Origin: Apostichopus japonicus
Taxonomy: Eukaryota; Echinodermata; Holothuroidea; Aspidochirotida; Stichopodidae
Reading direction: 5' to 3'
Assembly (NCBI RefSeq): GCF_037975245.1
Contig: NC_092561.1
Location: 2,268,501-2,332,500 of the forward strand
Length of the DNA stretch: 64,000 nucleotides
Shown: piece by piece, positions 3,102 through 54,627 of the stretch
How positions within the stretch are numbered: the stretch's first letter is position 1
Layout: every line of letters starts with the position of its first letter
Program-made: the position numbers and the translations under genes
Notes under the pieces: generated by a model
What the model saw: only the letters and a program-made list of their open reading frames with translations
Databases searched by the model: none
What the model was told of the DNA's origin: nothing

Positions 3102-6100
3102 ATGGAACCGCATTGGCTTCTGTTGTGTTTGGTTGTTTTCGATGGATGGACTATTGCTCGGACTAGCACTATAGGTAACGAGTATATTGTACTATATATA
3201 AACTCTACTTTGATTAGATTTAATGTTAGTGTTCTGATAGTGTTCTGATTAGTTAGTATAATTTTCGTGTGAGTTTGAATAAAATGAAAATGACAATTGA
3301 TGTAGCTAGGATGTTGCCTGTCCTATATATACGATGCGTGCTGTTGTAGGAACTATCAGGAAACTAAATTATGCAGGACTCGAGGCCTAAACATAACTAA
3401 CGGACTATTAATCATCTCCATTTAACATATTATTGATCAAAATCATCCTTCAAACTAACAAATTCATATGAATCTTACCCTTCATAGTTTCCTTATTTAG
3501 ACATACACAAGTTGCCTTATAGGTGTCCATATCGAGAGTCAGTGAAGAGCAAATGATATATCATTGACTGATACATGTCAAAGGTTACCCAAGGCCCAGG
3601 CGCAATTACCCAGAGGGTGTAAGGTGTACCCCCTTCAACCCCACCCTAATTTTTTTTTATAGTTATTAGCAAAGTCTTGCGTAGAGATATACTTAATATG
3701 GACAAAACCTTAATATTTCTCAGAATGCACCACATCACGTACGTCATATCTGGAAGAGTAACCCAACATCCCACGACATGGAAGTAATAAAAAATGGTTT
3801 CATGTTAAATGTCCCCTATTCATACATGTTACAGGTTGTATGTCTATTCGCCTCATATCATTACCTTATGCCCAGTGGCGTAGGAAGGTACTTTTGAGTG
3901 GGGGGGGGGCTGAAGACTGATGGCCGGCCTGGGGTAGGGGTCTAAGGGGAGGGGGTGTCCCCCTCCCTTTTGGAATTTTTTGCATTTCCAGGTAGCCTCA
4001 GATGCAATTTGGTGCAATATAGCACACTTCAACACCCACTCCATTTTGTAAACTTAATTTTGTATTTTCACCAGGCCTTAGATGCAATTTGGTTCTCCAA
4101 ATGAGATTTTTTTCTCATTTGGAAATGAAAAAGCGGTTTTCTGACTTGCGAAGCGGGGGGGGGGGGCGGAATGATACTTCCGCCCCTCCACATTTTTCAC
4201 TGGGGGGGCTGGCGCCCCCAGCCCCCCGGTTCCTACGCCCTTGCTTATGCCTATATGTCAATTGTGTTATAACAAGTGTACCCTATGCCTATACATGTTC
4301 CAGGTTATATGCGTATTCGCCTCATGTAATTACCTTATAGGTCTATATGTCAAATGTGTTATAACAAGTGTACCATATTCCTACGTGTTACAGGTTATAG
4401 GTCTATTCGCCTCATGTCATTACCTTTGGCCTATATGTCAATTTTGTTATTCAAGTGTACCCTATTCCTACATGTTACATATTATATGTCTATTCGCCTC
4501 GTGCCATTACCTTATGCCTATATGTCAATTGTGTAATAACAAGTGTACCCTATTCATACATGTTACAGGTTATTAGTCTATTCGCCTCATGTAATTACCT
4601 TATATGCCGATATGTCAATTGTGTTATTACAAGTGTACCCTATGCCTATACATGTTCCAGGTTATATGCGTATTCGCCTCATGTAATTACCTTATAGGCC
4701 TATATGTCAATACTTTCATAGCAAGTGTATCCTATTCCTACATGTTACAGGTTATAGGTTTATTCGCCCTATACGTTGATTCGATGGTGGATCAGTACGA
4801 GAATGCATTCGCTGACTTACTTGGCAACCGATGCTCCTCGTTTTACTCGTAAGAATAAGTTAAATCTAATGAATCCTGGGTAACCGTAGAATAATATATG
4901 GTTACTGTATAGTACGACTGCATACCATCATCTTCTTATGACATCACTGAAGCCACTATTGTAAGCTTACAATACAATTTAATTCTTTTGTTTATCTTCG
5001 TTTGAATTTTTGTTTTATCATTTGCGCCTTAGTTTATTTTAATGCTCATTGTTTATTTGTTTTTGTTGTTAATATTTATCTTACCAGGCACAGTGTCCAT
5101 TCAAGGGTCACCAACACTCGAGGTTATGGAGGACGTCGCTTACAGTCGAATCGAGTTTAGAGCAGAGGCTAACGGTGCTGTCAAATATGGCGACTTGGAG
5201 ATAGGTAAAACTTAACATGAACATTTATATAGATTTTTCGTATATATAAAGGCAGCATTGCTTTCAATCTAATAGAGCAGACGTTTTAGTTAATATTCTG
5301 CTAGGATGTCTTTAGATTTCCATGACTATGAAATTTATCTTTAGCTGTTTCATTTTAGCAGGTATATTGCTAGAAAGTCATTTAGTTAGCTAAGCATTAT
5401 TTTAACTCCTTACTGAAATGAAAAACATGATTATCAAGATGGTTTTCAATTTTATCCTCGAAGTATATACCATTGACGATGTATCCGGAATGCCAGATGT
5501 GGAACCTGGTTTCGACTTCACGCCCTCATTGGGGGCGTTTCCCAACACGTTCACTGTAACGATCCAAGAAGGAGCTACAGAGAGCAATCTGTTTGTACTT
5601 CAAGTCATAGATGATTGTCACGTTGAAGATGAAGAGGTACTTCGATTCGCCCCGTTAGCTACCGTTGCCTATACGACCAACGGCGATCTTTATTCGGTCA
5701 TGGCAGATATGCTTGACGTCACAATCAGCGAAGGAACAGCTGGTGAGTTCTTCAGTCATGAAGTAACAGTGACCAGGTGACAGTACGACAGTCAGTGTAA
5801 CAGTATAGAACCAGAACTTAAAGGGGAAATTGTCTCAATCTTAAATTCAAAAGAGCATCCTAAGAGCATTTTGAATCTTGGAGGTCTAAAGTTTTTAATA
5901 ATGCCGTGAGACTTTATTAATGATTTTAGAAATAACAGAGTAACTGATGTCATAATGATGATTGAGCTATATAAATCATCTATCAACTGAACAAAGAAAT
6001 ACTCTTACTGACAAATCATGACACTGCTAGCGAAAATGACATTGATCCATATTGAAATATTCCAAAATGAGTCACATTTTATTAAAATACGAACAATATT

Positions 6101-6317: not shown

Positions 6318-9300
6318 TGCTATTATTATTATCACCATATTATTTCAATTGGAACACCTTGTCCGTCAATTATTCTCAGATACGGAGTCAATCGAGATCC
6401 AGATAACTCCTGAAAATCCTGATCTTGGTATAGTGATCTTTGAAGGCGAGACAAATGCAGTGATACCTATAACAGGCTTCGAGTGCCGCAGCGTAGACCC
6501 GAGAGCATTGCCAATCGAAGTCACATGTACTGCAAGTAAGTTGTTCTATTCTAAACATTTTTAGCAGATTCCACAAATATTTGTCAGTATTAATACAACA
6601 GCTTCCAAGTAGAAAAATGAAATCGTGTATCTGCATATGCAGCTCCTGCTTGTAATATATGTTGTCACAATGAATGTTGACTGACTAAAGCGACGTCAAA
6701 GATCGATTCTTTCAAGCATTCATCCATCCATCGATTATTCTTTTCATCCATCCATCCATCCATCCATCCATCCATCCATCCATCCATCCATCCATCCATC
6801 CATCCATCCATCCATCCATCCATCCATCCATCCATCCATCCATCCATCCATCCATCCATCCATCCATCCATCCATCCATCCATCCATCCATCCATCCATC
6901 CATCCATCCATCCATCCATCCATCCATCCATCCATCCATCCATCCATCCATCCATCCATCCATCCATCCATCCATCCATCCATCCATCCATCCATCCATC
7001 CATCCATCCATCCATCCATCCATCCATCCATCCATCCATCCATCCATCCATCCATCCATCCATCCATCCATCCATCCATCCATCCATCCATCCATCCATC
7101 CATCCATCCATCCATCCATCCATCCATCCATCCATCCATCCATCCATCCATCCATCCATCCATCCATCCATCCATCCATCCATCCATCCATCCATCCATC
7201 CATTCATTCATTCATCAATCCATCTACTCTAGTGGCAATCGTTCTTCCATCCATCCATTCTTAAGCTTCCGTCCGTCCATCTATCTACATTATATTTATA
7301 TCAGTAATGATGAATACGATATTTGTATCATTGACAGCTCTTACACAGACAGATCCAACTAACGGTCTACCTTTAACTAATGCTGACTTCATCATTTCTG
7401 AGGTTGTCCAGTTAGCTCCCGACGATGGAAGTTTCACAATCCAAATTAATGATGACACTGTGATTGAAGAACCCGAAGTGTATCATGTCGGATTCAAAGA
7501 GGCTGGATGTGGTACAGGCAATGCAGTTCTTGTAAATGATAGAAAAACAGAACCATTTACCATAATTGATAACGGTATGTGCTGTACATACTACATAGTA
7601 TCGTTATTTTACTATTGGTCACGCTGTAGGGGTATAAGAGGTACAATTCATCCCCTACGCCCGCCCCTCCCACATGCGCCTCCACCTTTGTTTATATCCA
7701 CACCGTATCGGCTAACTGTTTGGGGCATTAATGCGAACGACACATTGAGTGACGTGTAACTGGTTCAAAATTCAACTCTGATTTCGCTTGTGATTGGGCC
7801 TTAAGTTATCAGTAAACAGAGCAAAACATATGCAAATCAAAGAGAATGTGATTCAAGTTCAATTGTATTTGTTCTGCTTTTACATAAGATGTTCTTCATT
7901 GGCAGATTTCTTCATAAGTGTTATTTAAATAAATGGAACTATAGCAGACGAGATGTACTCTAGAATTATTAAACCAGAAGTCATCAACCACAATTGACCA
8001 AGATTGACGAATATTCACTGCGACCTCTATTCTATTCTATTTTTTTCACAGATGACGAGATATTTTATGGTATCGTTAGCCCGGCAAGCATTGGTCGCAA
8101 AGAGTCAAGTGATGTTAATGTTTACGCGATTACGACTCAGATTGACACAGATACGACCATTGTGGGTAATAATGCCGTGTGTCCTTTTAAGGTCCAATTA
8201 CCGCCTTTTTGTAAATCTACCGACCTGACCTGCGACCCAAGCGATGTCTATGGAACTAACACCGTATTTCGTCGACCTAAAAGGGAGTCTCGCGGTCGTT
8301 TTGGAAGTTACATCATAACTGCTGCTTACAGTACTCCTCAGTCCATACCGGTGTTCGTTTTACCAACCAGTGGTAAGTTCGACTCTCATATGTAGCATAC
8401 GTCCATTAAAGCCCGATTGACTTACACACTAAATCACAAAAGTAATGTGGTCTCTAAGTCTGTATAAAAGTTCTCATTAGCTAAACGCTTGCCATCACTA
8501 GATAGCTGACAAGTTGGCCTTTCATGGTAACATAAGTTATCCGTATCATGACCATGCAGATTTTTAATTGCTATCAGAACCTGAAGTTTCCGTCACTTGT
8601 AAACAAACAAGCCTCTTCACTCAGTGGTAAATAATTTTCGTACGCTGCTCCTGGGAGGCCTTAAGGGTTCTAAACTTGCCTCAAATGACCCAATTTTTGC
8701 ACCATATGTGCTTCTATTCTTGCTTTTTAACATACAAGCCACACAAAAAACAAAAACAAAAACAGATCCTGATTGATAACAGGTCAAGAAAAGATGTTCT
8801 CCTGCTGCATTTTGGCACTTTTCCCAAAAGGCAACAATCGGGCGGATCTGTATAGACTCTAATAGGAGTATGCCACCTCAAGCAATTGTTGACAGGGGGC
8901 GGGCGTCCATCTCACAAAATAACGTGGGTTAATATGAAGTCAGAGAACATATATCAAAGCTTTATTTTCTCTTTAAAGATGTAGGAGATTTGTTTATTCA
9001 TCAATATCGATGACTTTAACTCGGAAAGTATATCAGTAACCTAAATATTTTCTTTTTCACTTTTTAAAGCTGAATTTTAATTAGGTTGTAAATCTTCAAA
9101 ATCTTACTTCACCCGATATTATAACGCAGATTCAGGTCCTTTCGTCATTTTACTAAGGTATTTATGTGTTTGCAACAAATTACGTGTTCACAATAAGCGA
9201 ATTTGAATTTGTATAACCTCAAAAAGCAAAGGTTATGGAACACAAATTGAATGTATTGTTTTCAATGTATTGTTCCATCCCGTTAGATGTACTAAAACCC

Positions 9301-12020
9301 ATTCGCGGTCCAACCATTACGATCAATGATGGCGAAGACGTGGTTATCGGGGTTGACTTTTCTTCATTCACCCGGGAGTTGAGATGGAAATTTAATGGGA
9401 AGGAGTTACCGAAATTTAGTGGTAAATGTCACTTTGAAATAAAGAAAGCTAAATACGGCACCCACGACGGTTACTATGAGGTTACCCGAGTACAACGCCG
9501 GGATAGTGGATGGAGGACGATCATACGGTTAATCATCAGACGTAAGTGAATCAATTAACACTACTCGATAAGAATACGGGTACTGGTCGGTTTGTTATAG
9601 TATTGTATAATCATAAATGTACAGTTTAAGGGGGAAAAAATCATATTTCAATCGTATATTGTTGAAATCAATATCTGCCATTAGCAAATTAGAAATATCA
9701 AATTCAGTAGGAAATGATCATTTATTTTGAAGAAAAGTGAAGATATTATTAGTTCGAAAACGATTTGACACCATAACCGTAATAAATGAGAGTCATATGG
9801 GTTTCATCTAACCGAAAATGTAAGTAGAAAACATATCCTAATAAGGGAGTTGTTCCATAAAAACTCCCTGTTCCAATCAAAGATCACACCTCAAGTTCAA
9901 TTCGGTACAATCTGGTACAATCCAGAAAACAATATGGAAGGGGGCGTAAGAGAATTTCAATTTATTTCTGAATGTTAAGGCATATGAGGCAACATGTATA
10001 GTCTATTTGTTTTTATATTTATAACGGTTTATATCGTGGAACTGCTTCATGTCCTTGTATCCTCGTTGACTATGACCAGATGACTTTCACGTTATTAAAA
10101 ATAAAATTACAAACTTGATAACCTAAGATACCAGTTACAGAATGTTGCTTTCAACTGACGATGATTGAAACACGTCATTTACTCTGTTAATTTCAGAATG
10201 TTCGGCTTGCCAATTCATCGGTGCATCGTCCGATTGTACCGATCTCGGTTCACCTACGACGACGTGTAAATGTTATAACGGAGGAGTTTGTCCAAGTACT
10301 TTTGGAGGAACAGACGATTGGAAATGTGTTTGTCCATTAGGGTTTTATGGAAAGCGATGCGCAACAGGTATGAATGAATGCATGAAAGCATTAATGAATG
10401 AATGAATGAATACATGCATGAATGAATTGGCATATGAATATATGCATGAATGTATTAAGAATTAATACATGAATGATAGAATGCATGCGTAAATGAAAGA
10501 ATGAATCAATTAATCAGTCAATGAATCAATGAATGAATAAATCAATCAATCAACCGATCAGTATATTGGAGCGGCAGGGTTTTATTGACAGCGGTGCGCT
10601 ACATGTATGAATAGATGGATGGACGTATGAATGAGCTGATTGACACATGGATGGATGGATGAATTAATGAATGCATGAATGATGTCATGAATGCATGAGT
10701 AAGTGAATGAATGAATGAATATACATATCACTCAACCATGCTGTGGTTAAATCCTACGTTTAAGTGTAGATTGAGTTTTCTATTTAAGTCGTTTCTCTTA
10801 ATCAAAATTGGTTATTGTTTTCAGTTTACCCAGGAAATATCCGAATCGGTCCACCAGCTAAAGGTCTAACATGCCGCGACCTGGATAAAGGCATATCACG
10901 TGACTGCCGGGGTGTACTTTTCTGCTATGCTGACCCATTAGGATGTCTCTGTGCTCGCGGTTACTGGGGAGAGAAATGCGATAGAGGTATGTGTTCACAA
11001 ACAATTCATGCAAGTCGCATAACTCAGTTTTGTAACATTTCTTTGAACTGTAAGATATTTTGACTGGCTGGTCAGAACTCAGTGGAGTCTGAATTCTACT
11101 AGTTTCATCAAAATTCTTTTATTTTAAGAGATATTTTTCCGTGTTGGGGATGAAAGAAGTTTACAGTATATATAATATGATCACATTAATATAATGCTCA
11201 TTAATTGATATGTCGTGTCAGTCATTTTACTCTTCCAGATGCGATCATAAATCATCTCGAAAGCATTCACACCTTCCTGATAATTAAACACGCCTTGAAG
11301 GATAGTTTACTCGTTATAGTACAGAAAATAGACAGCATATTCTTGAAAACTTCTAGCAACGGAGCATCCCATTATTGAACATTACGTTACTCTTAATCCA
11401 ATTACAATACTGATGCTGGGGGAGCTGGGTGGGAAGGGATGAGAGGGGGGATTCAGGGTGAAGTCAAGGGATGGAAGGGATGGGAAGGGAATGAAAGGGA
11501 AGAGAAGGAAAGGAAAGGTGAAGGGAGGTCGGAAGGGATGAGAGGATAAACTTTCTACAAGAGTATCTTTCTTTCAAAAGGTCTTAGAGATTATTGGAAC
11601 GCAAAAAAAAATAAGGTGGCAGTCGGTTTGGCACAATATTGAAGTTCAGGACTCCAACTGTCTAAAGCCTGTTTTGATTATCATTTCTAAAGTCTGAGAT
11701 ATGACAGTATGAAAGTAGTACCCTACAGCTAGAGTAAATACTCTCATCGGTTGACTGACCTTACGGGAGTTATTCTTTTGTCATTCTTAGTTCAATATTC
11801 CATCGCAATTATTAAACTTATCCAGCTCTGAAAATAAAGACTCATCTGTTCTGTGTAATTGTCTGTTTCAGTGTGTCCTAATGGACGATTTGGAGCAAGT
11901 TGTCTTCAACGCTGTAACTGTGTTGGACCTTGGGACAGCTGCGATCCTAAAACTGGCGTCTGTAAGTCAGGGCAGTGCAAGACAGGGTTTGACGGCGCAA
12001 ATTGTCAAGTAGTTGAATAG
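3102..12020 (+). CDS. Secreted Calx-beta / Tie-like Ig-EGF protein, copy A (639 aa)
   Basis: Ten exons: 3102-3174, 5088-5204, 5464-5742, 6380-6535, 7338-7574, 8052-8372, 9287-9541, 10197-10367, 10825-10986, 11872-12020; every intron is phase 1. Residues 1-20 are a signal peptide ([19 protein letters not shown]). Residues 25-156 and 157-287 are Calx-beta-like, with FDFTP, an IDD then EDEEVLRF, and a second INDD then EEPE. Residues 288-394 form a Cys-bearing spacer with a furin-like RRPKR at 361-365. Residues 395-479 are Ig-like with few cysteines. Then come three EGF repeats: [48 protein letters not shown]. From memory the order and spacing match the Tie2 Ig2-EGF1-3 block (CKSYVFCLPDPYGCSC). 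No transmembrane or kinase exon follows before the stop. It is probably a secreted binding or decoy protein; the ligand is unknown. Confidence 0.88.
3785..4775. repeat. Minisatellite of about 90-bp units in intron 1 of copy A
   Basis: Direct repeats of a unit of about 88-92 bp containing CAAGTGTA (near 4273, 4364, 4452, 4540, 4630 and 4722), each followed by CATGTTACAGGTTAT and TATTCGCCTCATG-type segments. One more diverged unit lies to the left of the inserted MITE. The same array, inverted, is at 36003-36490. Open frames across it are by-products of the repeat. Confidence 0.9.
3873..4243 (+). mobile_element. hAT-type MITE, copy 1
   Basis: Non-autonomous DNA transposon of 371 bp with terminal inverted repeats CAGTGGCGTAGGAA and TTCCTACGCCCTTG. 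It is flanked by exact 8-bp target duplications CTTATGCC at 3865-3872 and 4244-4251. It sits inside the minisatellite of intron 1. It carries internal G and C runs and no transposase. Relatives are at 34885-35223 and 56938-57306. The 8-bp duplication and CAGTG-like ends are hAT hallmarks. Confidence 0.92.
6724..7213. repeat. (ATCC)n microsatellite of about 480 bp
   Basis: A nearly perfect tetranucleotide tract in intron 4 of copy A, starting after CATCCATCGATTATTC and degrading to CATTCATTCATT at its right end. The matching place in copy B (about 31700-31830) has only short degenerate GGAT/GGAC remnants. The minus-strand WMDG-repeat open frames are artefacts of the repeat. Confidence 0.97.
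9844..9869. repeat. Short hairpin, AGGGAGTTGTT type (intron 7, copy A)
   Basis: AGGGAGTTGTT, a short spacer, then AACTCCCT, an imperfect inverted repeat. The counterpart in copy B is at 29174-29199. A near-perfect relative lies far outside the duplication at 63315-63346, so it is a dispersed palindromic motif. Confidence 0.6.
10370..10730. repeat. Degenerate TGAA/TGCA-rich simple repeat in intron 8 of copy A
   Basis: Imperfect ATGAATGA, ATGCATGA and TGAATCAA units fill most of the intron. The reverse complement is at about 28080-28440 in copy B, so the repeat predates the duplication. Confidence 0.85.
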
Positions 12021-26800: not shown

Positions 26801-37172
<10,372 letters not shown>

Positions 37173-41664: not shown

Positions 41665-44601
41665 ATGGCGGCCATGGCCCAAAAGAAGGAGGTCGATTTA
41701 GTTCCCACTGGTGAAACCTCCTCTCAGCCGATACAAAAAAACAATGATAACGGAGAGTCGAGGGATTGTCAAGGTGCAACAGAGGAACCGAACACAAGGT
41801 ATGTCGTGGGTACTGATAAAGGCCTGCAGAGAATGAATGTAATAGAGGTGCAAACACGTATTTATATAGTTTATATACCACTTATCTTATTAGGTATTGT
41901 GGAGGGGGGGGGGGGGTTATGGTAGGATTTAATGGTATATAAAATATTGACTGGCACGAATTATTCGAACCAGTGAACACAGGTATACTTCAACGAGAAG
42001 TGACCCTTTTTTTCACAAACCTTGCATATACCGACTTTAATCATAACATTGTGGGTGGGGGGGGGATTAGGGTGGGGGGGTGGGTTAGAGGAAGGCGAAT
42101 GAGGAGGAGAGAATGCCAATGAGCTTTAAGGTAGTCTACCTTACCTTTCTCCAGGTTTCTGTAGCTTTTAATTAGGCCTAATTGACATGATTTATTTCCT
42201 TTTTTTTCTTAGGTTGAGGGCAAGAACAGACCAATGGAAATACACCGAAGCTGTTCCTAACGCTCCCGGTGAACCGCCGAATCCCTCGCCTGTGTTACCG
42301 GACATAGAAGGAGTTCACACCGGTTTATTTTTGCAGCACTTTACCAATAGCGTTAACAAAGCGCTCCATAAACAACATTGTACATGTAACGGTAAAATTT
42401 ACACATCTGAGGACTTATTCGAAAAGAGTAACCCGGCATTGTTCGGTAGGTCTAAATCAGAAATCGTTTATAGTCCGCAACATCGTAAAACCGTCAAATT
42501 ACCGCGATTGAGAAACGATGCCTCATTGGTTGGAGGGAATGTGGACATTGCAATTGAAGAAAAAGGAAAACCACCTCTACAGGTACAAATTGAACGCGAG
42601 GCAAGAGATATTCACATGTACGGTATGTACTTACAAACACTCGATGAAAACGACGACACCGTTTTTAATGAGGATGGGGAAATTCGATTACCGAACCTAA
42701 TGGATATTCATGACTTAGAAGGTAACAGCTGGAAAATTATACAAGAACCAAAGAAATCGCGTGATTCCAAACAAAAAAGCAGGTTTGATCGAAAGTTGTT
42801 TGGTGATGCGATTAGCGATTATTATGAGGAGCCTAAATCGCGATCTGCGAAGTCCAATACATCGAATGGGAGAGACATCAAGCAGGAATCTGATAAGCCA
42901 AAGAAAAAGTTTATAGATGTTATGATTTCGTCTGCAATACCAAATAACAGCGATGCAGCATCGATATCTGAATCAAGTCTTCATTCGACCAGCAGTGAGA
43001 TGTTACCCAAGATGGAACCACTTTGTAATACCGCGCCTGCGCACACGACTCAAATACGCTCGCCGCCATTCGTGTGTGACGAGATGGGTAGAAAAGCGCT
43101 GTTATGGCGGTATGCATCCGAAGTTAGAAAAGGTGAAATCACATATCGCGATTATTTGACAAAGATATCCGATATATCGTCATTATACCGTGATGATGCC
43201 GGTGGTAATAAACGACAGAAGAGAGAACACTCACCACAAAAGGTTACCGCTGATGGCGATTTAATCAAAATACCTCGAGCTGATGTCGATATCGAGGCTG
43301 AAAACAATGGTCCGGTACTTCTTAGTCTCTCAAGTGCGTATGAACATCAGTGTGCTGCCGTGAATTTCGAACCTTCCTTCCCTCCAGAACTAGAAGTTTT
43401 ATATTCCAAAGCTGGACTTAGCGTGTCAAATTTAACAGATTCTTTCAGCAAAACATTACCGGAAAATTTTTTACAGAGGGAAAAAGAACGCTTACGGAGT
43501 GATTATCCTATGTATGACTGGAAATTGCAACAAAAACACCTGAAACTACCATCCGGACACAATGAGAGGGCTTATATGGAAAGACCGGTAAGGTCGGAGC
43601 CGTTGGCATCGAATTTGCGAAGGATAGCCGGTATTGGACCTCGTGATTTTGATCACAAAATGAAGGTTCTTTCAAATCGTAGCGGAGCTGACCAAGATGT
43701 CGTAAATATAAGAAGTTCGCAATTTTTCGATAGAAGGGGTGAGTTAAATGATATCCCAGAGACGGAAAGTGTGAAGAAACTAGTTAAAGGTGATGAAGAG
43801 AGTTCGAGAATAGAGTCCGGTGTATCGCGATCTTTTCCACCGAATCAACCACCAACGACACCTGTTGAGGTGGCTCTTACCTTCGCTAGTTGTTCGGTGC
43901 CAAATATAATGGAAACGATGGAGGAAGAGACAGAAACTGGACAAGAGGATGAAGAAAATGAGGAGGATGAGGAGGAAACTTCGGAAAGAAAGATGGAGGA
44001 AGATGGCAACATTATTACAGAACACCCGGATGCTAATCACATGACAAGAACTGGTCTGGCAACGGCAAAGTCTCAAAGGAGTGAGAGATCGTGGGGAGAA
44101 GGATTTGATGGTAAAATGTACAAAGTGAGCAAGGAGGGCCGAGTGAAATTTAATATGACGGAAAGGAAACCACGTCACCATAGTTTTGACTCGAACGCTA
44201 TCTCCAAAGGTGACGAAATTTCGACAGTTAGTGACGTAATACCTCCAAATCCGTACAACAGTAATGAGAACTTAAACGACTTGGGCTTATCACCAGGGAA
44301 ACAGGTCAATGACATCACACATTCTTTCAAAATGGATGCTACGAATAGTTGGTATTCAAAGCCTCTACCCGTCACCTTGCTAGGAATTGACACGTTGCCC
44401 GACATACAAAACTCGGGGTTACGATCGAGGTCCAGGACAGTGCGTAGCAAAAACAGTTCTAAAAGTGAGTTCTACGGTAAAAACAAGAAAGAACCTCCGT
44501 CAAAGCAGTTTTCAACTACACAAACATTAACCGGTTCCGCGAGAATCTTGCCAGTATCTTTAAGTACCAAACATGTTGTCTTTATCAGTCCCACAAAATA
44601 A
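41665..44601 (+). CDS. Unrecognised 840-aa charged, probably disordered protein
   Basis: Two exons: 41665-41798 (MAAMAQKKEVDL, donor AG/GTATG, phase 2) and 42213-44601 after a strong T-rich acceptor; AG plus G restores an Arg codon. The large second exon is open for 796 codons. The N-terminal third has the most folded-looking stretches: GLFLQHFTNSVNKALHKQHC, a Cys pair, then SNPALFGRSKSEIVYSPQ and VKLPRLRNDASLVGG. Around residue 343 is LLWRYASEVRKGEITYRDYL, probably helical. The rest is Ser/Lys/Glu-rich, with an acidic run at about 612-642 (EEETETGQEDEENEEDEEE) and a basic C-terminal tail. No signal peptide or membrane segment. I do not recognise the family. A cytoskeletal or ciliary scaffold is only a guess from composition. 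Confidence 0.82.
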
Positions 44602-52836: not shown

Positions 52837-54459
52837 TTAGTTGACGTCATCCTCAGAATCGGAAATACCCAACTGAATATCATCATTATCATCATCATCA
52901 TCGTCATCGTCATCTTCGTCGCTATCTGAATCGTCAGAAATTCTAGAATTGAAAGTGCTCATGTTTTCCAATCTCTTCGATAAAGTCATGCCCAATTTAT
53001 TAACTTCTCCTCCCCTTCCCTCACGATCTTTACTTTGATTATACATCATAAAAGAATAATCGGCGAAAGATTCTCTGGTTTTCTGCTTCTCTTGTTTTCT
53101 TTGCTTCATTCGCTCCTGCATGCGAATAAATTTCTCCTTGGCAGTCAATGGCTCACTTGTACTATCACCGGTAACTTCCTTTGTGTTAACAGCTACAGGT
53201 GTAGGGTCAATTGAATTCATAGGCTTCTGTGATTGGTCGATAGTATTGTCACCTGACAATATTACCCTATTAGATGCAACGTCCTCTTTGAGTACATTTT
53301 TTCCTTCCTTTTCTGGTCGATCAAAATATGGCAAGCTTTTTCTTATTTCCTCTGCCTCATCTGCGTTTATGACGAGAACGGGCTTCGCTGGCTCTTGTGG
53401 CTTAATTTCAGGAATCCTATTCTCTGGTTTTGGCGGGAAATATGTTGGCTTAGGAGTCATCTCTGGTTCCTCTACTATCACCTGCTTTGTTTTGGCTTGT
53501 TTTGGTGTTTTCTTATATGATTTCGTTTTAACTGGTTCTACTGAACGACTGGTCCTTCTCAAAAATAAAAATCTTTCTTCGACAGTCGCTTGAGATACGT
53601 CAGCCAGGCACTGTCGTCTCCTCAAGATTGGACTTGAATCAAGTCGCTCAAGTTTTGGTATATTTGTGGCGTGGTCCTTCTTCCATACCTCTAATTTGGC
53701 CTGTGTATCTGATTCGTTTATCCCTAAAATAGTGTTGTTACATATATTCTCTTTCAACGCGTTTGAACTAAACTTGATTGTTCTGTGTGGCATCGGACCG
53801 GAAGTACATATGGTTTCTAAGGAAGTAGCGTAGTCTTCGTTGGACAGTCGTGTTGTCTCTATAGCCGATGAATCATGATCAGCTTCTACAGCATCCACGT
53901 ACCAGTGATCCTCTGATTCGGGTGATGCTGCCCAAACTTCTCCAAAGACCGCCGAGTTTTGGCGCGCTTTTTGTCCTTCGAGATCCCTCCTAATTTCACG
54001 CAGTCGTCTGCTCAATAAACATTCTAATTGTGAGTTGGCAAGAATCAGTGTTTGGTAAGTTGGTGACCTACTGCGAGGGTGATACCCCTCTTTGGATAAT
54101 GGAACAATCCTATATGCGTTCTTTTCCGGACGACTAGCATTTCCGGTCGGAGAACCAGTCGGAGTATTTCGACGTAGCACACTAACGCCACCGTTGACAA
54201 TATTGACGTTAAGTTTGGGGTTATTTGCGAGACTACGAATCGCAGATTTGTTGGCATTTACACCGAGATTAATCCCTAAAACTTGCCGAGAAGTTTTCAA
54301 GGAAGGTAAACTAGCTGAAGAAGATGAACGAACGAGAGGATGTAGGTCTATTCTAGTTGTTGATCTAAGGGTGGGCTCGCTACGATGAGAAAGAACTGTC
54401 CCAGCTCCTTTCCGTGCAGGTACACCTTGTACATGGTAGTTCGAATGTGGTGGCGCCAT
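52837..54459 (-). CDS. Unrecognised 540-aa protein with basic helix and acidic tail, single exon
   Basis: Uninterrupted 540-codon frame from MAPPHSNYHVQGVPARKGAG to ISDSEDDVN. The N-terminal 130 residues are Ser/Arg-rich. Near residues 148-165 is LECLLSRRLREIRRDLEGQK, a likely coiled coil, then AVFGEVWAASPESEDHWYVD, the most folded-looking block. A Pro/Lys-rich middle follows, and at about 438-462 KEKFIRMQERMKQRKQEKQK, a strongly charged helix. The tail (about 505-530) is a run of Asp with Ser, encoded by a TCA/TCG-type repeat that may vary in length. No membrane segment or signal. The gene lies in the same orientation as the 596-aa gene 2.4 kb away and has a similar style, but the sequences do not align by eye. 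Confidence 0.8.
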   Translation of the reverse strand: MAPPHSNYHVQGVPARKGAGTVLSHRSEPTLRSTTRIDLHPLVRSSSSASLPSLKTSRQVLGINLGVNANKSAIRSLANNPKLNVNIVNGGVSVLRRNTPTGSPTGNASRPEKNAYRIVPLSKEGYHPRSRSPTYQTLILANSQLECLLSRRLREIRRDLEGQKARQNSAVFGEVWAASPESEDHWYVDAVEADHDSSAIETTRLSNEDYATSLETICTSGPMPHRTIKFSSNALKENICNNTILGINESDTQAKLEVWKKDHATNIPKLERLDSSPILRRRQCLADVSQATVEERFLFLRRTSRSVEPVKTKSYKKTPKQAKTKQVIVEEPEMTPKPTYFPPKPENRIPEIKPQEPAKPVLVINADEAEEIRKSLPYFDRPEKEGKNVLKEDVASNRVILSGDNTIDQSQKPMNSIDPTPVAVNTKEVTGDSTSEPLTAKEKFIRMQERMKQRKQEKQKTRESFADYSFMMYNQSKDREGRGGEVNKLGMTLSKRLENMSTFNSRISDDSDSDEDDDDDDDDDNDDIQLGISDSEDDVN

Positions 54460-54627
54460 GTATATATTATTTCACACATCTGGGACTGGGTGTGAAATTC
54501 TCTGTTGAAATAATATTGACATATTTTTTAATATTCTTACACATCAGACATATTTATATTACGTTTCATGGTAACAGTATAAGGTAGTATACTTTTTATT
54601 TACATTTATTTTTTTTATTTACATGAA

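Follow-up and report, generated by a model that had tools for sequence, protein, structure and literature searches.

In the published account of duplicated conotoxin genes, exons differ strongly in Dn and introns within one species are highly similar; the fast exon is described as the one encoding the mature toxin, an increase in Dn goes along with one in Ds, and the gene families are large (PMC3862624). In snake venom proteins, accelerated segment switch in exons (ASSET) is described as the replacement of short segments by unrelated sequence (PMC2711939). Extracellular Calx-beta domains, which are of interest below, are reported from the aggregation factors of demosponges, where they are tied to allorecognition (PMC10815962).

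Here we describe an inverted pair of genes of the sea cucumber Apostichopus japonicus that can be set beside these systems. The pair resembles the conotoxin genes (PMC3862624, in the aspects described there) in that the products belong to a gene family and are probably secreted, the introns are similar and the replacement rates differ strongly between exons. Unlike in the conotoxins, however, the fast part is one internal domain exon, exon 5, and dS is not raised. The similarity to ASSET (as described in PMC2711939) is that a block within an exon differs while fold-forming residues are kept. The block of exon 5 is, however, alignable throughout: the two copies share 58 of 78 residues, the point changes are scattered and a single codon is inserted. 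Since the segment has not switched to unrelated sequence, we rejected ASSET for this exon. Our best reading is that, once the gene had been duplicated, one of its domains came under positive selection; events of this kind are known, and the gene is a new instance. A search of open-licence papers on sea cucumbers, Tie receptors and Calx-beta domains found nothing on the present gene.

The window, that is, the whole 64-kb stretch of DNA that was analysed, comes from contig C1 of a 671.6-Mb assembly of A. japonicus (G000:C1:2268501-2332500). Both gene copies have ten exons (Table 1), coding for a signal-like start, two Calx-beta-like stretches (exons 2-5), a middle part (exons 6-7) and EGF repeats (exons 8-10) that run to a stop codon. 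When the part of copy A encoded by exons 2-10 (613 residues) served as query, a public A. japonicus protein of 639 amino acids (P0001) matched it with 100% identity. The signal-peptide-like start suggests that the protein is probably secreted. The stretch from the last part of exon 7 onward, residues 473-636, aligns with the EGF repeats of the ectodomain of Tie2, the angiopoietin-1 receptor (2gy5, E 1.6e-8), and also matches 9lv4 and 4k0v. The preliminary description of this DNA had spoken of an inverted Tie-like pair, which agrees with these repeats and with the position of copy B on the minus strand. Unlike a Tie receptor, however, the protein has Calx-beta-like domains in front and ends after the EGF repeats, and no kinase family was found in it by Pfam search. 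Tie receptors have additional Ig, fibronectin and transmembrane parts. In intron 3 of copy B (about 32180-32350) there is an (ATT)n array longer than that of copy A.

Table 1. Positions of the gene features, counted from the first letter of the window.
Feature	Position	Strand	Remarks
Copy A exon 1	3102..3174	+	start codon; signal-peptide-like N-terminus, judged by eye
Copy A exon 2	5088..5204	+	
Copy A exon 3	5464..5742	+	
Copy A exon 4	6380..6535	+	second Calx-beta-like domain begins here
Copy A exon 5	7338..7574	+	phase 1-1; most likely C-terminal part of the second Calx-beta-like domain
Copy A exon 5, core with the 26 base differences	7370..7541	+	sites 30-201 of the in-frame exon, counted from 7340
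Copy A intron 5	7575..8051	+	
Copy A exon 6	8052..8372	+	
Copy A exon 7	9287..9541	+	
Copy A exon 8	10197..10367	+	EGF-like
Copy A exon 9	10825..10986	+	EGF-like
Copy A exon 10	11872..12020	+	EGF-like, runs to stop codon
Copy B gene, exons 1-10	26801..37172	-	inverted relative to copy A
Copy B exon 5	31422..31661	-	one codon longer than that of copy A

Exon 5 has AG/GT borders and an open frame in both copies. Between them, 20 of 78 aligned residues differ, copy B has one additional codon, and two changes are silent, both in Gly codons. These are exactly the counts of the preliminary description, which had considered the exon hypervariable; its estimate of about five replacements in the 300 residues of exons 6-9 was likewise reproduced (5 in 299 codons). 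The 26 base differences of exon 5 are distributed over codon positions 1, 2 and 3 as 14, 9 and 3, so that 23 of them fall in the first two positions (P=0.011 against an expectation of two thirds). An excess of adjacent double substitutions was considered and rejected, since five were observed and 3.8 expected.

We estimated substitution rates by the Nei-Gojobori method in the nine exons 2-10, with exon 1 excluded. In exon 5, 24 of 179.6 nonsynonymous and two of 54.4 synonymous sites differ (dN 0.147, dS 0.038), as opposed to 19 of 1197.2 and 18 of 383.8 (dN 0.016, dS 0.048) in the pooled exons 2-4 and 6-10. Exon 5 is the only exon of the nine in which dN exceeds dS; in each other exon dN is lower than dS. 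The dN/dS ratio of exon 5 was 3.9 by counting and 4.1 by codon-model likelihood for the exon alone (p=0.023 against omega=1; p=0.019 at kappa 2 and p=0.009 at kappa 4). When a divergence time common to all nine exons was assumed, omega was 3.15 in exon 5 and 0.36 in the other eight (p=2.4e-4), and when the time was fixed from the introns, omega of exon 5 was 1.68 (p=0.022). By one-sided Fisher tests, nonsynonymous divergence of exon 5 exceeded synonymous divergence of the same exon (p=0.034), nonsynonymous divergence of the other exons (p=1.3e-11) and synonymous divergence of the whole gene (p=2.2e-4).

The introns give a further point of reference. Of the 4504 sites aligned in introns 2-9, 363 differ between the two copies (0.081; 337 of 4365 when the simple-repeat part of intron 4 is removed), and the divergence is about 8% throughout the gene. 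According to the preliminary description, exon 5 is more diverged than its intron. This holds for nonsynonymous sites compared with all introns (one-sided Fisher test, p=0.012, uncorrected), but not for the exon as a whole, where the excess of total divergence (26 of 234 sites) is not significant (p=0.067). The choice of a neutral yardstick is itself uncertain, since the introns have diverged more than the silent sites of the other exons (p=0.017).

Because exon 5 is the most extreme of nine exons and was chosen as such, we applied a ninefold correction. The comparison with gene-wide synonymous divergence and the likelihood test with shared time then remain at about 0.002, whereas the tests within exon 5 alone and those based on introns exceed 0.05. 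The diversifying selection on exon 5 that had been proposed from the first reading of the letters is supported, omega being 3.1-4.1 in two models and 1.7 when time is taken from the introns, with p values between 2.4e-4 and 0.023; the dN/dS ratio of this exon is neither near nor below 1. Positive selection on the domain that contains exon 5, acting after the inverted duplication while the other exons were under purifying selection, is in our judgement somewhat better than an even bet, a claim that rests on one pair of sequences, A and B.

The strongest of the alternatives, in our view rather unlikely, is relaxed constraint, under which exon 5 of one or both copies drifts nearly neutrally and the high ratio reflects a silent count that is low by chance. 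Consistent with this are the mere two silent changes in about 54 sites and the lower omega of the intron clock, significant before correction only. To neutral simulations that started from copy A (3000 runs at each of the distances 0.05, 0.085, which is the intron distance, and 0.12) the two accounts relate differently. A replacement-to-silent ratio of 12 or more, as relaxed constraint would have it by chance, arose in 7.4%, 3.8% and 1.2% of the neutral runs, respectively. At least 24 replacements, however, were seen in 0%, 0.6% and 14% of them, and at least 24 replacements with at most two silent changes in 0, 0.03% and 0.3%. The test with shared time also argues against neutral drift, as does the preservation in both copies of the reading frame, the splice borders, the Cys, the DD and the TIIDND motif.

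The preliminary description had assigned exon 5 to a second Calx-beta-like domain. A Pfam search of the domains gave no Calx-beta match, and profile searches of PDB sequences likewise gave none. However, when a profile of four exon-5 homologues was compared by hhalign with nine Pfam-positive Calx-beta segments, picked from 20 loci fetched from the same genome, the match had a probability of 94.3% (E 1e-7). A Pfam search of the genome found Calx-beta in at least 52 places, many of which span only profile positions of about 41-119, and the Calx-beta exons that we inspected by eye have the layout of exon 5, with phase-1 borders and profile positions of about 42-119. Their borders, inferred from AG/GT alone, are alike at the 5' side in loci L043, L046, L050 and L051-L053 (less clearly in L047 and L049) and at the 3' side in L035, L037, L043, L046, L047, L050 and L051-L053. 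The profile comparison together with the exon phase supports the assignment, and the most likely product of exon 5 is the C-terminal part of a Calx-beta domain that has diverged from the known ones. The first Calx-beta-like stretch had no Pfam or PDB match and a weak profile match to the second. An AlphaFold2 model built with three sequences had a mean pLDDT of 30 and a pTM of 0.21, too low for use. The preliminary description had thought a variable binding surface likely. One of the changes between A and B, Tyr/Ser, aligns with a Phe shared by all nine Calx-beta segments; as a rough guide, this suggests that at least one of the changes is away from the surface, and a change at such a position would fit relaxed constraint.

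Two further sets of Calx-beta exons from the genome served as controls. On contig C17, where nine copies of a different Calx-beta exon stand in tandem, pooled pN was 0.0129, pS 0.0153 and flank divergence 0.0457 (36 non-independent pairs; a tenth exon, 50% identical, was excluded). One pair on contig C6 had pN 0.054 and pS 0.070, with 14 of 243 exon sites differing versus 17 of 390 in the one flank that could be aligned, the other flank being not alignable. Within the C17 set, copies 1 and 3 differ by four replacements in 177 sites versus three differences in 299 flank sites. Calx-beta exons of this genome accept replacements almost freely (pN/pS about 0.8), yet the ratio is below 1 in both controls, and the low pN on C17 relative to its flanks speaks for selection on exon 5. 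The ratio near 0.8, and some pairs with exons as diverged as their flanks, temper the contrast seen in exon 5 and support relaxed constraint to a degree.

Some features of the control loci are of note in themselves. The nine tandem exons on C17 (C17:15214001-15244000; L054-L056) have 96-100% protein identity. The first copy differs from the others at 30-37 of about 300 flank sites, and between copies 1 and 2 no exon site of 228 differs and 33 of 299 flank sites do, the reverse of exon 5. The C6 region (C6:17818001-17863000; L057-L061) contains tandem Calx-beta exons of several types, and two of its units, L047 and L048, are 99.5% identical over 3.1 kb.

Comparison with relatives shows how exon 5 has behaved over longer times. 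A search of the assembly with the full protein found one further gene of like architecture, copy C (C1:4067571-4074319); the other matches were to the EGF part or, in two cases, weakly to the exon-7 region. Copy C corresponds to P0003, a putative angiopoietin-1 receptor-like protein of A. japonicus, with 95-100% identity in the longer exons. It resembles A and B in that it is on the same contig, C1, and collinear with them in exons 3-10, but is an older single copy, and its exon 5 is 31% identical to that of A, a lower value than in any of the other seven exons compared (exon 3, 47 of 92 residues identical). A second related protein, P0002, is 52% identical, and in exon 5 36%, the second lowest value of nine exons (exon 2, 23%). 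This weak conservation of the exon-5 domain over long times would suit positive selection as well as relaxed constraint. At the 21 exon-5 columns that differ between A and B, the inserted codon included, 13 match neither P0002 nor copy C; P0002 matches A at two columns and B at two, and copy C matches B at five and A at none. Since the outgroup matches are split between A and B, both copies have probably changed. Protein searches for additional relatives returned none with a 121-residue piece and, with an alignment (7999 candidates scored), the same three proteins.

A different explanation is that a short gene conversion or segment exchange brought a stretch from a paralogue or a divergent allele into exon 5 of one copy; we consider this improbable, more so than relaxed constraint. 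Its appeal lies in the arrangement of the differences. They had been said to lie in the central 60 or so codons with identical ends, and indeed all 26 are in codons 11-68, forming a block of 172 sites between identical flanks of 30 and 32 sites (permutation P=0.0014). The exchange would also fit the start of intron 5, where two of the first 125 aligned sites differ. This agrees with the earlier figure of about 2 in 120 bases, which did not hold for the whole intron (28 of 429 sites, 6.5%). The low-difference start falls, however, inside the permutation range, and stretches of 120 sites with one or two differences are present in introns 6 and 7 too. Local homogenisation of introns by conversion was considered separately and rejected: the longest run free of differences, 114 sites in intron 7, is between the permutation limits of 108 (95%) and 126 (99%), with the simple-repeat part of intron 4 excluded. 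Near the end of exon 4, four adjacent bases differ, which is also in keeping with an exchanged segment.

The search for a donor argues against such an exchange. The preliminary description had named conversion from a more distant paralogue as an alternative to selection, and had suggested a search of the genome for paralogues that carry the donor sequence. With the DNA of exon 5 as query, the entire assembly yielded two places, copies A and B, and a protein search found these two and a third match at chance level (E 0.95); copy C, as noted, is far more distant in this exon. A second exon 5 hidden in an intron was also rejected, since tblastn of the protein against the window gave one per copy. 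Moreover, an ordinarily constrained donor would have added silent changes, and exon 5, with a dS of 0.038, does not exceed the other exons in this respect (0.048). A distant donor is therefore disfavoured, although one that was lost or left unassembled, and had itself evolved by replacement, is conceivable.

That one exon 5 is an assembly chimera with another locus or haplotype is very improbable: copy A has in intron 4, upstream of exon 5, a (CATC)n array some 460 bases long (about 6745-7203) that is missing in B and is a known assembly hazard, but A and B lie together in a contig of chromosome scale, their frames are open and their splice borders intact, intron divergence is about 8% along the entire gene, assembly searches found no other locus with such an exon, and the public protein matches copy A fully, though it probably derives from the same assembly.

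Positive selection on the exon-5 domain thus remains our preferred reading, and it would imply the following course of events. An ancestral Apostichopus gene, probably for a secreted protein with two N-terminal Calx-beta-like domains and a Tie2-like EGF segment, underwent inverted duplication. Exon 5, whose share of the second of these domains is about two thirds, would then have gained replacements faster than neutral, probably in A as well as in B, with purifying selection acting on the remaining exons. The exon-5 domain may be a module that contacts a ligand, with the C-terminal EGF part as a constant scaffold. The driver may be a partner that coevolves with it, for which immunity against a microbe or parasite is the most likely setting and cell or gamete recognition the second choice. 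A gene annotated as TIE1 is reported among the top genes of a holothurian coelomocyte cluster rich in immune genes, a cluster described as containing mucins, FCGBP and ficolin, and also neuronal genes (PMC11244903). Orthology of this TIE1 with the present gene is a presumption, and it is on this analogy that we take immunity as a first guess.

Under positive selection, exon 5 of this little-described family would be a probable contact site in an arms race, and the animal concerned is farmed and has no antibodies. If alleles abound, a Calx-beta domain would have to be added to the variable domains by which invertebrates are known to recognise other molecules or cells. It is tempting to go further and picture an echinoderm recognition system in which a hypervariable Calx-beta half-domain on a constant Tie-like stalk, present in many alleles, binds microbes or tells self from non-self; we regard this as highly doubtful. 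The sponge aggregation factors share the Calx-beta domain with the present gene, and self-recognition is known, from the account cited above (PMC10815962), for the sponge side only.

Some minor observations concern the rest of the locus. The four adjacent base differences near the end of exon 4 (6519-6522 in A, 32001-32004 in B) exchange Glu-Val and Asp-Tyr; they are in the same domain as exon 5 and possibly represent one multi-base event. Long open frames at 42172-44598 (plus strand) and 52840-54471 (minus strand), of 809 and 544 amino acids, had no Pfam match at E 0.01. At positions 3-677 the window includes part of a gene for a neurotransmitter-gated ion channel (PF02932). Between copies A and B there is a sodium:solute symporter gene, of which two open frames match PF00474, one above the curated cut-off and one just below it.
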